Source: a virus
Strand: one strand, 5' to 3'
DNA length: 20,970 nucleotides
Virus record (IMG/VR): IMGVR_UViG_3300010354_000837
Span: 1 to 20,970 of that record
Shown here one piece after another: positions 6,461 through 20,970 of the stretch. The first letter of the stretch is position 1, and each line of letters starts with the position of its first letter. A program made the translations under genes and the position numbers. The notes under the pieces were generated by a model, which saw only the letters and a program-made list of their open reading frames with translations, was not told the origin of the DNA and made no database searches.

Positions 6461-6986
6461 TGTATGTATATAGTTGCTTCATGGATTCCACGTCGCTCGT
6501 AACTGTAGGCGGATTACTCGCGTAGGACATAAACGTCTGATTAAGCAGATTATTAAAAGCAGGATCTTCCGCTAATTTTTGGAACTGTGTGATGGGTGCA
6601 GATAACGCTGCATATAACCGAGCACTTCCAGCTTGACTTGCTTGGTTAAGCCGATTGGTGTAATCGCTCAAACTCGAGGACAACATACCTGCAAACCGTT
6701 TCGCTGATTGTGAAGCGAGCAGATTCGGATCATATTGAGCTAATTGTCGACTGTACTGGCTGCCGATATCACCGATCGTCTTGTAAAAATCTTGCGAAAG
6801 TTGCGTAGTGGCCTCCTTAGGCCTCATCGGAGCCAGGTTGCTTATAGCTTGTTGTTGTTTATTCGCTCGTTTTTTTAATCTCTGATTTTGACGCCGTAAA
6901 GCAACGATAGTCCGCTTCTGAATATCGCGTGCGGTATTTACCGAAGCTTGAGCACGCTCAGCAGGACTAGGACCGAATAAACCCAT
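6453..6986 (-). CDS. Probable internal virion protein, helical
   Basis: 177 residues, alanine- and glutamine-rich and predominantly helical. An N-terminal GLFGPSPAERAQAS is followed by a strongly basic coiled region (IVALRRQNQRLKKRANKQQQ) and then amphipathic helices such as FYKTIGDIGSQYSRQLAQYD. Short helical A/Q-rich proteins placed just after a transglycosylase gene are typical of internal core or ejection proteins in podovirus-like phages. That analogy, rather than similarity to a known family, is the basis of the call. The start codon overlaps the stop of the transglycosylase gene (TAATG), indicating coupled expression. It could instead be a tail-assembly chaperone. Confidence 0.5.
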   Translation of the reverse strand: MGLFGPSPAERAQASVNTARDIQKRTIVALRRQNQRLKKRANKQQQAISNLAPMRPKEATTQLSQDFYKTIGDIGSQYSRQLAQYDPNLLASQSAKRFAGMLSSSLSDYTNRLNQASQAGSARLYAALSAPITQFQKLAEDPAFNNLLNQTFMSYASNPPTVTSDVESMKQLYTYNV

Positions 6987-8305
6987 TATCCGAAAGGTGC
7001 TTGGCCTCGCTTAATTCTACCAGCAACAATATCTCTTATCCGCAGGATTTCTGGGCTAGCTGTAGAAGCTCCGGGATCAAAGAAGTCCATAGAAATGTGA
7101 GGACCCGTAGCGCGACCTGTAGTCCCTTGTAAACCAAGAGGCGTGCCCGCCGCTAAACGCATACCGGGCTTTAGATTCGGATTGATTTCGTTAAAGTGAG
7201 CAATCAAGGTGTCGAAAGGTTTACCCTCAGGAGTAACACCTCGAAGCTCAACATAGTTACCGTACCCACGGCCGCCTGGACCTCGATTAGCGGCGTTAGG
7301 TTCGCGAACGACTTTTAAAACCTGAGCATTAAAAGGCGTCGCAAACATCGCGTTAGCCCCTCCCGCAAGCGCAAAATCCAAGCCAGGTTCGCCCGTGGCA
7401 TCGACGGCAGAGGTGACAACAGCATTCGGATACGAAATACCTCCGCCAGTTTTAGCGAAACCTTGGCCCGGTTTAGCCCCTGTCTGGGTATTAACACCAG
7501 CAGCTTGCGCCGTCTGACTCACGGCCACGTCGTTGAGTGTTCGTTCAATCTGAGAAGCCTCTGCGTTATATGCCGTCTGCTGCTGCCTGAGCTCCAAGAT
7601 GTTTTTAGCTAATGTTGATGGATCTAAACCTACTTGCTGCGTCGATTCGGCTAGCTTGCTGATCGACTGCGACTCCAGAACATCCGCTTCATCCTCGTAG
7701 CCGGCATCCGCCAATTCAGCGGCACGGTTTTGGAGCTGTATAGCTTCGGCTGCGCTGTTTGGTGTCCCCAAACCTTCGACAGCTGAACGCAGCAGCAGAC
7801 CTTTCAAAGCGCCGCGAAGGTCGAATCGGGGAAGTTGAATGCGTTGCGCGGCATTAGCAGGAGCTGGAACAGGGGCTGGAGTTTGCGCTGGGCCGCGGGG
7901 AGCCATCATGCCCCCCGTAGGAACAGCGGTCCCGCCTAAAATTTTGGTTACGTAATTTCTCGTCTCTTTAAAAGGCGGAATACCCCCGTATCTCTCCACG
8001 TTGCCGGGGCCTGCGTTATACGCAGCCAGAGCTTTGGGATATGACCCGAAACGTTTTAATTGCTGACTGAGGTACCTAGCACTTCCTGTTATGTTTTGAA
8101 CCGGGTCTGACGGATCAGACACACCAAGGCCCCGAGCAGTTGCAGGCATCAACTGACCCAGTCCTTGCGCTCCGGCAGGACTAACAGCGGCGGGGTTCCA
8201 CCCAGACTCTGTAGTTATAAGGCGCTCAAAAATAGCCGGATTAACACCAAAATCACGGGCTTTTTGCCTAGCGATTTGCTTAAGTTGCTCTGTGGTGTAT
8301 GGCAT
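6986..8305 (-). CDS. Virion lytic transglycosylase fused to a degenerate M23-like domain
   Basis: 439 residues. Residues ~3-125 are an SLT (lysozyme-fold) domain: catalytic E33 in [20 protein letters not shown], then [11 protein letters not shown] and [17 protein letters not shown], all classic for transglycosylases that cleave MurNAc-GlcNAc bonds. A P/A-rich linker (~130-155) and a helical segment (~160-265) follow. Residues ~300-412 match the M23 (lysostaphin/LytM) fold: [42 protein letters not shown]. The M23 zinc site needs HxxxD and HxH; here the first His is E306 and the last is S405, with D310, H370 and H403 kept, so zinc binding is probably lost. The domain may recognise peptidoglycan while the SLT domain cuts it during DNA entry. 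There is no signal peptide, which fits a virion-carried enzyme rather than a secreted one. Confidence 0.85.
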
Positions 8306-17546: not shown

Positions 17547-18662
17547 TCAAGCGTTAAAGGAGTAGGCGATGGTCGCGAAGTCAGCGTTCAGGAGTTCGAA
17601 ACCTGCGTACAGGCTCCAAATCATCATGATGAAACGGCTGAAATCGTCGTTGTTATTCAGGAGCACCTGAGCATTGTTACCGCCGATGCCGACGCCAACA
17701 CTCTGGGGACCGAAGAACATACCGATTGCGCTTTCATAAGCCTTAGACGTGCCGCCGATGGTGGCAGTCTGGCTCTGAGAGGGCATGTTAGTGGATTCGA
17801 AGAAGCGAACGCCTTCGAACACAAAACCCGTGGGCATAATCGGCTCGCCCGCCACGAAGGTGGCTTGACCGAAGCCCTGACCCATGTAGATGGCAGCGTT
17901 GGGCTGCATCGAGGACATGAGGGGGTTGATCTGACCGTTGCCGGGGTAACGAGCAACTTCGCGGAAGTCGCTGTTCTGGCGCAGGTGCATCAGGAAGGTA
18001 GGATCGCAAACGCAGCGATAGAAACCGTCCTGGTAGGTAGGAGTGTTCCGCTTACGCAGGCTCTTCACCACACGCAGCAGGTCATCCTTAACGTCGAACT
18101 TGGCTTGTTCGGCGTTGGCATAGGTGAGGCTACCAACAGCGAGATCGCCGGGATAGTAGTAACCACCTTGGCTGTCGGAAGCTTGACCCTTGGAAACAGC
18201 TTTCAGGAGTTCATTGATGAACACCCGGTCGCGCCAACGACGATAGTCGTCAAGCAGGGTCAGAGAACCGATGGACTGGTGGAAAGCGGTGAGGTTACCG
18301 GTATCCAGCAGCAGACGCTGAGCGGTGATCAGAGTCTCGCGAGCAATCTTGAAGGTGCTCGGCTGAGTGGGATCACTCGGGTCAGCAGGACCAGTGTACT
18401 CGCGGAGGGTCACGAGCACTTTGTCCTTAACAATGTTGCGGCTGTTAGCCGTGCCGATGGTTTGCTCGGCAGTGCGCTCCCGGCTCTCTTTGGAACCAGG
18501 ATTGCCCCAGAAGCGATACCGGTCTAACTGAACAGTCTGGCCGGGTTGTTTAGAGAAATCATGAACAACCACAGGCTCTGCTGCCATCTCCACCACGTAA
18601 GCGGGGTGAGGACGGTATAATTCAGCGCCCAGCAGCTTCGGGAAGTCATTATCGACGAACAA
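17547..18662 (-). CDS. Probable major capsid protein
   Basis: 371 residues, the usual size for an HK97-fold coat protein. The N-terminus, AELYRPHPAYVVEMAAEPVV, followed by a basic/aromatic strand (QTVQLDRYRFWGNPG) and, later, FYRCVCDPTFLMHLRQNSDF and GFVFEGVRFFESTNMPSQSQ, matches the layout of N4-gp56/P22-like coat proteins: N-arm, long helix, P-domain, 'GxxFEGVxFxES' strand. The start is TTG, unusual for a capsid gene, but GGAGG sits eight bases upstream. Codon use is GC-rich and uniform, as expected of the most abundant protein. A terminator lies just upstream (18702-18729) and another after the following gene, making a capsid-pair transcript. Assignment rests on size, layout and context. 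Confidence 0.7.
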   Translation of the reverse strand: MFVDNDFPKLLGAELYRPHPAYVVEMAAEPVVVHDFSKQPGQTVQLDRYRFWGNPGSKESRERTAEQTIGTANSRNIVKDKVLVTLREYTGPADPSDPTQPSTFKIARETLITAQRLLLDTGNLTAFHQSIGSLTLLDDYRRWRDRVFINELLKAVSKGQASDSQGGYYYPGDLAVGSLTYANAEQAKFDVKDDLLRVVKSLRKRNTPTYQDGFYRCVCDPTFLMHLRQNSDFREVARYPGNGQINPLMSSMQPNAAIYMGQGFGQATFVAGEPIMPTGFVFEGVRFFESTNMPSQSQTATIGGTSKAYESAIGMFFGPQSVGVGIGGNNAQVLLNNNDDFSRFIMMIWSLYAGFELLNADFATIAYSFNA

Positions 18663-19941: not shown

Positions 19942-19968
19942 AAAAAACCCCGCCTAACAGACGGGGTT
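19942..19968 (-). terminator. Intrinsic terminator after the scaffold-like gene
   Basis: On the minus strand AACCCCG (19968-19962) pairs with CGGGGTT (19952-19946) around a nine-base loop and runs into a tract of T (six in all counting the stem end). It lies 30 bases past the stop of the 305-residue gene. Confidence 0.8.
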
Positions 19969-19997: not shown

Positions 19998-20915
19998 TCA
20001 AGCGTTGTCCAGGAACAACAGCTTGCTACGCAGAGCTTCTGGACTCATTTGAGACAGATAGCGCCAAGCGTTTTCGGGGCTTTGATCCATGGTCTGCGTG
20101 AAACCATTCCACTGGGACTCAGGATCAGCGCCGCGGGCACCGCCGGTGGTAGAGGCGGGAACGGCAGGGAACTGATCGTACTGAGGCTCGTACTGCTGCC
20201 CGTAGCCATACTCCATTTCGTCATCCACGGGGTAGACCTCCGTGAAGAAACGATTGGTGTAGTCAGCCAGCTGATCGGGATCAGTCAGAATGTGCTCCAT
20301 GGCGCCGGCTCGCAGAGCGAGGGCTTCCATGTTTTCGTTCTGCTGAATAAGCGTATCTTCCAGAGTAACGGCGTACTCATTCAGAATCGCAGGGGCTTCA
20401 ATACCGAAGTGGTTAACTACGGCGCTTGTTTCCTCGCTTAGTTGAGCGGGTTGCGCTTCCGTAGAAGTCGGATAGGAAGTCGGGATTGTATACGCGCTGT
20501 TGTACGAGATCTGCTGATCCGTAGGCGCTTGGTACAGCCAGGGTTGGGCCTGTAAATTCTGACTGTACTGTTGAGTATCCTGCGGCACCATTTGGTACTG
20601 AGGATACTGTTGTGCCTGGCTGGGGGATGGGGAGATCCGAGAAACCACCCGTTCCAGGCTGCCCATCGCTGCTTCCCACGGGTTGGACGGGGAGGAGGCT
20701 GACGGAGACTGGTTGTACTGGTTGCTGGTAGAAGGGGCCGTAACCGGTGTTGCCGGCGACTGCATTTGGGGCATAGCCACCGAAGGCACCCCCTGGGTAT
20801 TGGCTACCCACTGCGGGTAGGCTGTTGAGCCCATATCCGCCGAGGGTGCTGCCTGAGGGGCCGCTACCGCCGGGGAGACCGGGCTCGGGATCGAAGCTGG
20901 GATCTGCTGGCTCAT
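19998..20915 (-). CDS. Scaffold-like capsid assembly protein candidate
   Basis: 305 residues. The first ~160 are P/Q/S/A/Y-rich and disordered (MSQQIPASIPSPVSPAVAAP and SQNLQAQPWLYQAPTDQQ). Residues ~160-230 form a helical, acidic core: SEETSAVVNHFGIEAPAILN, then LIQQNENMEALALRAGAMEH and DPDQLADYTNRFFTEVYPVD. A further disordered linker leads to a C-terminal helix, SPENAWRYLSQMSPEALRSK. A disordered N-terminus, helical acidic centre and small C-terminal helix, encoded upstream of the capsid gene, is the pattern of podovirus scaffold proteins. Its 5' ~500 bases are also open in another frame that enters from the right edge. If only that frame is used there, internal ATGs (for example the one opening MVPQDTQQ) could be the true start. 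No ribosome-binding site precedes the ATG at 20915. Confidence 0.6.
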   Translation of the reverse strand: MSQQIPASIPSPVSPAVAAPQAAPSADMGSTAYPQWVANTQGVPSVAMPQMQSPATPVTAPSTSNQYNQSPSASSPSNPWEAAMGSLERVVSRISPSPSQAQQYPQYQMVPQDTQQYSQNLQAQPWLYQAPTDQQISYNSAYTIPTSYPTSTEAQPAQLSEETSAVVNHFGIEAPAILNEYAVTLEDTLIQQNENMEALALRAGAMEHILTDPDQLADYTNRFFTEVYPVDDEMEYGYGQQYEPQYDQFPAVPASTTGGARGADPESQWNGFTQTMDQSPENAWRYLSQMSPEALRSKLLFLDNA

Positions 20916-20970
20916 AGCTGCCCGAGTAAGTCAGTTCTTGCGCAAGGTGATCGAACGTCCTGTATAACAG
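20413..20970 (-). CDS. C-terminal end of an upstream gene, overlapping the scaffold-like gene out of frame
   Basis: Reading leftward from the window edge, 185 codons are open without a stop until TAA at 20413-20415. Over 20916-20970 this is the only open minus-strand frame; the other two carry stops there. The visible protein begins LLYRTFDHLAQELTYSGSYE and PADPSFDPEP, then becomes G/P/S/Y/Q-rich (GLPGGSGPSGSTLGGYG; FYQQPVQPVSVSLLPVQPV), and ends with a basic tail, STKRGNKRRS. By position, directly upstream of a scaffold-like gene, a portal or head protein with a disordered C-terminal extension is likely, but nothing in the visible part proves it. It overlaps the scaffold-like frame by 503 bases. 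Confidence 0.5.
   Translation of the reverse strand: MLYRTFDHLAQELTYSGSYEPADPSFDPEPGLPGGSGPSGSTLGGYGLNSLPAVGSQYPGGAFGGYAPNAVAGNTGYGPFYQQPVQPVSVSLLPVQPVGSSDGQPGTGGFSDLPIPQPGTTVSSVPNGAAGYSTVQSEFTGPTLAVPSAYGSADLVQQRVYNPDFLSDFYGSATRSTKRGNKRRS

Follow-up and report, generated by a model that had tools for sequence, protein, structure and literature searches.

Organization of the locus

The window analysed here, i.e. the whole stretch of DNA, is a virus record of 20,970 bases. Near its right end, two long reading frames overlap on the minus strand. The portal frame is open from the contig edge at 20970 to a stop at 20413, with 185 codons visible, and the scaffold frame runs from an ATG at 20915 to a stop at 19998 and encodes 305 aa. 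Over the whole 503-nt overlap the scaffold frame lies at +1 (one base forward) relative to the portal frame. This out-of-frame overlap of 503 bases had been noted in an initial annotation; its coordinates were confirmed, and it is more than a chance occurrence. Since the record ends within the upstream gene, the full length of the latter was taken from longer relatives. In the relative L003, the scaffold is 100% identical and the portal is complete with 744 aa (L003:4269-6503), of which approximately residues 560-744 are visible in the window. The features of the locus are as follows, all on the minus strand:

20413..20970, minus strand: 3′ part of the portal gene, cut by the contig edge (PHROGs and Foldseek matches)
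20413..20915, minus strand: very probably dual-coding overlap of 503 nt, for the C-terminal tail of the portal and the N-terminal half of the scaffold, both predicted to be disordered
19998..20915, minus strand: gene of a probable scaffolding protein, 305 aa (open reading frame, relatives, AlphaFold2, position between portal and major head protein)
20913..20915, minus strand: ATG at which the scaffold frame starts, unchanged in 77/77 sequences of the clade
20931..20933, minus strand: stop codon TGA (TAA in others), in frame with the scaffold start and upstream of it
20634..20681, minus strand: short predicted scaffold helix, residues 79-94, inside the overlap (AlphaFold2)
20416..20457, minus strand: last 14 residues of the portal, forming its basic C-terminal patch and encoded in the overlap
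20004..20435, minus strand: C-terminal half of the scaffold, predicted to be helical at residues 161-224 and 265-304 (AlphaFold2)
19942..19968, minus strand: terminator-like hairpin and T-run (sequence)
17547..18662, minus strand: major head protein gene, downstream and in the same direction (phrog_1357, 3e-22; 68% identical to phage S-EIV1)

The hairpin (CCCCG, a 9-nt loop, CGGGG, TTTTTT) lies directly 3′ of the scaffold gene and is present in L003 as well; its 9-nt loop is beyond the limits of the terminator pattern scan.

Some further genes were observed in the vicinity. Downstream of the scaffold terminator and ahead of the following gene, L003 carries an ORF of 172 aa (L003:7013-7531) with CxxC motifs and HNH/endonuclease-VII-like character; this ORF is missing from the window and looks like a mobile endonuclease insertion in an otherwise near-identical locus. 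A glycosyltransferase family 17 gene (L003:2726-3559; Pfam 1e-15) is located two genes upstream of the portal. In the window, positions 6986-8305 encode a 439-aa protein that resembles a lytic transglycosylase in its N-terminal part and matches profiles of peptidase-type tape-measure proteins and endolysins in its C-terminal part.

Conservation of the overlap in related viruses

Relatives were collected by scanning IMG/VR with the scaffold, head and portal proteins, and genome contigs were scanned in addition. This resulted in 404 complete related loci, comprising 129 of the window clade (W), 134 of the S-EIV1 clade (E) and 141 of two further clades (M and F). Some of these represent the same contig met twice, and the analysis set is non-redundant (77+84+68+36=265). 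No match was found when phage records were searched at the nucleotide level with the segment from the window, and the genome-contig scan yielded nothing with a single portal sequence and two loci with a portal profile, one of which, on a marine TMED88 assembly contig, led to clade M. In the phage collection a single cultured relative was found, Synechococcus phage S-EIV1, with 68% identity in the head protein and 46% in the portal. A tree of the portal bodies showed all four clades to be monophyletic (support 0.85-1.0), with 50-62% identity between clades.

Both frames are open and in the same phase in 404/404 complete loci. The overlaps have lengths of 443-638 nt (497-518 nt in W, 548-638 nt in E, about 443-539 nt in M and 515-539 nt in F). 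In the apparent exception, L140, the portal frame is interrupted upstream, close to the end of the contig, and the overlap of 509 nt is intact. Among the six possible frames, only the portal and scaffold frames are open in 77/77 W and 84/84 E non-redundant sequences. In all W-clade loci, a stop codon shortly before the start bounds the scaffold frame, and the same was seen in the sister clades. The overlap is old, being common to four clades that share only 50-62% identity in their portal bodies. The age order of the two frames remains unsettled, because no relative without the overlap was found among those collected.

An antisense ORF at 20049-20441 was also considered as a candidate gene. 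In the relatives, antisense frames carry stops across the overlap, with at most 5/84 sequences open in one frame, and the overlap-lying part of this ORF is not a conserved gene.

Identity of the upstream protein

A match to phrog_20475 (virion structural protein, 1e-158) was obtained for the upstream protein, and that of L003 also matches phrog_64 (portal protein, 5e-8), for which the protein of S-EIV1 itself reaches only 0.08. No match was obtained in a Pfam search with this protein or in a PDB sequence search with the portal profile. Foldseek with the AlphaFold2 model returned 35 matches with E<=1e-3, the best being 9e-9, to solved portals; all 35 entries are described as portal, neck or tail-complex, with TM-scores of 0.13-0.41 for a low-confidence query model. 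The PHROGs profile and the fold match together identify the upstream gene as that of the portal protein.

The AlphaFold2 models of both proteins have a low mean confidence (pLDDT 46 and 50), and a low pLDDT is indirect evidence of disorder only. In the portal model the final helix stops at residue 576, the overlap begins at about residue 577, and residues 578-744 are predicted to be disordered. In each of the four clades the tail terminates in a basic patch, with a mean net charge of +4.4 to +5.6 over 14 residues (+5.6 in the window clade). Furthermore, the motifs P.P.PG.T, PG.LR and G.ADL seem by eye to recur in the tail in all clades and are candidates for binding motifs.

Identity of the downstream protein

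The 305-aa gene is located between the portal gene and the major head protein gene. Residues 1-160 of its product are predicted to be disordered (pLDDT about 30-40) except for the short helix at 79-94, which adjoins an [NS]PW[EQ] motif present in 229/229 sequences of the W, E and M clades. Helices are predicted from residue 161 onwards, with a pLDDT of 68-82 for residues 261-300 and low values elsewhere, and this helical half (20004..20435) lies almost wholly outside the overlap. Scaffolding proteins usually show a disordered front half, a helical back half and terminal helices, and the predicted anatomy of the 305-aa protein, which is helix-rich and partly disordered with terminal helices, meets this description.

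No meaningful match to the 305-aa protein was found in Pfam or PHROGs, and Foldseek with its model gave no structural match. As scaffolds diverge fast, a missing match to a known scaffold weakens the label and does not exclude the role. The absence of any sequence or structure match to a known scaffold would also agree with a different reading, in which dual coding is real and the product is an internal head protein or another virion protein. We regard this as unlikely, since the gene sits between portal and major head protein and the disordered front, helical back and terminal helices fit the usual look of a scaffold. A scaffolding protein is the likely identity; this function is inferred from gene order and predicted anatomy only, and the label “scaffold-like” given initially is plausible and unproven.

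Translation start of the scaffold frame

In clade W, of all in-frame starts before alignment codon 219, the ATG at 20915 alone is retained in 77/77 sequences, and the portal Tyr codon holding it is always TAT, never TAC. In clade E, a Shine-Dalgarno sequence in the arrangement AAAAGGAG-7 nt-ATG is invariant (84/84), and the codons CAA AAG GAG ATG before the start are likewise invariant in 84/84, although three of them had synonymous alternatives. AAGGAG precedes a GTG start in almost all sequences of clade M, and AAAAGAGGT precedes an ATG start in 36/36 sequences of clade F. These conserved Shine-Dalgarno sequences of E, M and F are situated inside portal codons. In the 60 nt before the start, the portal-synonymous change is 0.10 (pooled) versus 0.40-0.57 in the portal body by clade. 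Downstream of the start, selection in the scaffold frame is detectable already in codons 2-28 (NN/NS 0.39, 0.26-0.57) and continues onward, including codons 29-60, and the N-terminal peptide MSQQI.AS.PSP is kept in most of W.

At 20915 no Shine-Dalgarno sequence was found in W (duplex -2.5 kcal/mol), and it is likewise absent from roughly half of the other genes inspected in the window. By portal-residue alignment, the W start lies 12 nt further downstream than that of E. A search for RNA structure at the start as an alternative initiation signal revealed no common strong structure (z 1.26, -0.68, 1.00, -2.79). Two side observations may be added. Within 20890-20935 of the window, the Shine-Dalgarno-less W shows no variation in TCG (Ser) and TAT ahead of the start, and another initiation signal is possible; in clade F (L348:5686-5765), the scaffold start region is more stable than shuffled sequences (z -2.8), unlike in the other clades.

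The initial annotation had offered two other explanations for the open frame, namely an internal scaffold start near 20600 or later, and a programmed frameshift joining the two frames. Under the first, the openness upstream of the later start would be due to chance or composition. It could draw on the absence of a Shine-Dalgarno sequence at 20915 in W, on better duplexes at alignment codons 53 and 90, and on the late start given for S-EIV1 in GenBank. However, starts at codons 53 and 90 are kept in only 44/77 and 65/77 sequences, compared with 77/77 for codon 1, codons 2-28 and 29-60 already show selection in the scaffold frame, most of W retains the N-terminal peptide, and the sister clades have a Shine-Dalgarno sequence at the matching place. 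The invariant ATG, the Shine-Dalgarno sequences of three sister clades and the selection within the first 28 codons lead us to reject the later start, which is very improbable.

Under the second explanation, a +1 frameshift would fuse portal and scaffold, and indeed a shift anywhere in the overlap would give a fusion, as the scaffold frame is at +1 throughout. This suggestion found no support: the scaffold has its own conserved start in each clade, with a dedicated Shine-Dalgarno sequence in three of four; a stop shortly before that start closes its frame; and selection on the scaffold from the first 28 codons together with the retained basic C-terminus of the portal is as expected for two separate full-length products. 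A frameshift is thus highly doubtful, though slippery sites were not searched for systematically. Internal initiation of the scaffold at 20915 is by far the most probable reading, inferred from sequence without expression or ribosome-profiling data.

Selection on both reading frames

In W, third-position diversity is reduced in the overlap for both frames, from 0.51 outside to 0.24 for the portal and from 0.51 to 0.25 for the scaffold. Ratios of dN/dS were determined by an OLGenie-like count on independent close pairs. For the overlap in W, they amount to 0.26 (0.19-0.35) in the portal and 0.27 (0.19-0.36) in the scaffold frame. The scaffold ratios in the other clades are 0.36 (E), 0.41 (M) and 0.26 (F), and those of the portal are 0.82 (E), 0.55 (M) and 0.51 (F). 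Noncoding frames served as controls and gave values near 1 or higher, in W 0.98 for the scaffold-phase frame in the portal body and 1.9 for the portal-phase frame in the scaffold-only part. The portal ratio of clade E (NN/SN) is weak, since with an interval of 0.64-1.05 the value of 0.82 is not significantly below 1. By other counts (NS/SS 0.40; scaffold-synonymous change 0.16 versus 0.42 outside), constraint on the portal is evident in this clade, too; it is the reduced scaffold-synonymous change that still shows it. Purifying selection acts on both frames, strongly in W and more weakly on the portal frame in E.

Simulations were run with neither, one or both frames under selection, and each gave the expected ratios. 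Only the model with both frames selected resembled the data (dNN/dNS/dSN/dSS of 0.031/0.110/0.115/0.394 simulated and 0.024/0.092/0.093/0.416 observed). When a single frame was selected, the other gained stops in 60-83% of lineages, whereas stops occur in 0 relatives in either frame. In addition, codons were shuffled synonymously. With the portal protein fixed, the scaffold frame acquired approximately 3-4 stops and stayed open in only 0.15-1.6% of shuffles; with the scaffold fixed, the portal frame was open in 0-1.75%. For S-EIV1, two of the three null models gave only a weak result when the scaffold was held constant in the shuffle (P 0.05-0.11).

The remaining objection is that only one frame is a gene and the other is open through nucleotide-level constraint such as RNA structure or composition. 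In favor of this, the sequence is of low complexity and rich in P/S/Q/G, which is able to keep a second frame open, and the shuffle of S-EIV1 with the scaffold fixed is weak as described. Against it, sites silent in both frames are about as free in W as in the flanks (dSS 0.42 versus 0.44-0.46), which excludes a general nucleotide constraint, and in E they change at the flank rate as well. The simulated stops in 60-83% of lineages against none in the relatives, and both W ratios being well below 1, also speak against it. A single-gene reading can therefore be practically dismissed, and we return to dual coding.

The earlier suggestion of overprinting of two disordered regions held, on the basis of selection in both frames and the disorder predicted by AlphaFold2 for both segments. 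The GC-rich third positions ascribed to both frames are only weakly informative here (GC by codon position in the overlap 0.58/0.55/0.66). Two observations would have refuted the proposal, and neither was made: no homologue with a stop in one frame exists among the relatives examined, and third-position variation typical of a single coding frame was not seen, as it is suppressed in both frames in the overlap and dN/dS is below 1 for both in W.

Comparison with S-EIV1 and other known systems

The S-EIV1 proteins AHV82224.1 and AHV82225.1 (KJ410740.1) are direct homologues of the two proteins in the same order. The overlap of their open frames measures 554 nt, is in the same phase, and begins with an ATG at L156:7429 behind a perfect Shine-Dalgarno sequence, AAGGAG, at 7-nt spacing. 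Unlike in our reading, GenBank lists two non-overlapping hypothetical proteins: AHV82225.1 is annotated from L156:8005 with 133 aa, and the open frame from 7429 gives 325 aa. It appears to have been annotated too short because its likely true N-terminus overlaps the portal gene. The S-EIV1 scaffold frame (L156:7429-8406) corresponds to KJ410740.1 59287-60264, so that AHV82225.1 is approximately 192 codons short by this analysis. S-EIV1 has a genome of 79 kb, and S-EIV1-like genomes also occur in the ocean, with about 3.3% of the cyanophage content in one survey (PMC5332604).

In phage lambda, the scaffold Nu3 is nested in the 3′ part of gene C in the same frame and shares protein sequence with it. 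The initiator of lambda head assembly consists of portal B, protease C and scaffold Nu3 (PMC3224144). The likeness lies in a scaffold start inside an upstream head-assembly gene; here, in contrast, the other frame is used, the portal is the host gene, and the protein sequences are unrelated. In phiX174, gene B lies out of frame within A, an overlap noted in PMC3606162; B is the internal scaffolding protein and A a replication gene. In both cases, another essential gene contains coding sequence of a scaffolding-type protein in a different frame. However, phiX174 is a small ssDNA microvirus with B nested, whereas here a tailed dsDNA phage shows a partial terminal overlap of two head genes. Same-strand +1 overlaps in virus genomes have a median length of 14 nt (IQR 8-26; PMC8903798). 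They, too, run from the end of one gene to the start of its neighbour, but the overlap described here is about 500 nt long, and the expectation that overlaps of this length are rare in phages is consistent with these statistics. An out-of-frame overlap of portal and scaffold was not reported in the literature searched, which did not cover S-EIV1's own paper.

Proposed explanation and significance

Taken together, the region very likely encodes two proteins by a genuine out-of-frame overlap (probability approximately 0.93), as inferred from sequence without expression data. One transcript for portal and scaffold is plausible, with the terminator-like hairpin just after the scaffold gene. Ribosomes translating the portal would read to 20413, and the resulting portal would carry a C-terminal tail of about 167 residues that is disordered and has a basic end. 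A second set of ribosomes would initiate internally at 20915, at +1 of the portal frame, and produce the 305-residue protein, of which the first 160 or so residues would be mostly disordered and the rest helical, and which is most likely the scaffolding protein. Head assembly normally needs far more scaffold than portal. Separate initiation would permit such a difference in dose, which is inferred here. The shared DNA encodes two flexible segments and, by inference, could satisfy two proteins at once.

The portal tail would point into the procapsid, where the scaffold lies, although this is likewise inferred. A bolder and merely possible reading is that the portal tail and the N-terminal half of the scaffold are a co-evolved disordered pair which meets inside the procapsid, for example with the basic tail and the conserved short motifs of the portal binding the scaffold, for which there are no binding data.

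Long same-strand out-of-frame overlaps have been thought to be mainly a trait of small viruses with scarce coding space, and here one is found in large tailed phages. It links two genes of head assembly and has been retained in four divergent clades of a widespread phage group related to the cyanobacterial phage S-EIV1. With 265 non-redundant sequences from these clades, it is among the few cases with enough sequences for following selection along both frames, and it offers a clean test of whether disordered segments make overprinting possible. The misannotation of the only cultured relative found shows that gene callers truncate overlapped genes. If the bolder reading is true, the shared DNA would lock portal and scaffold into one inherited module, and translation of the portal through the scaffold start would set the dose of the scaffold.
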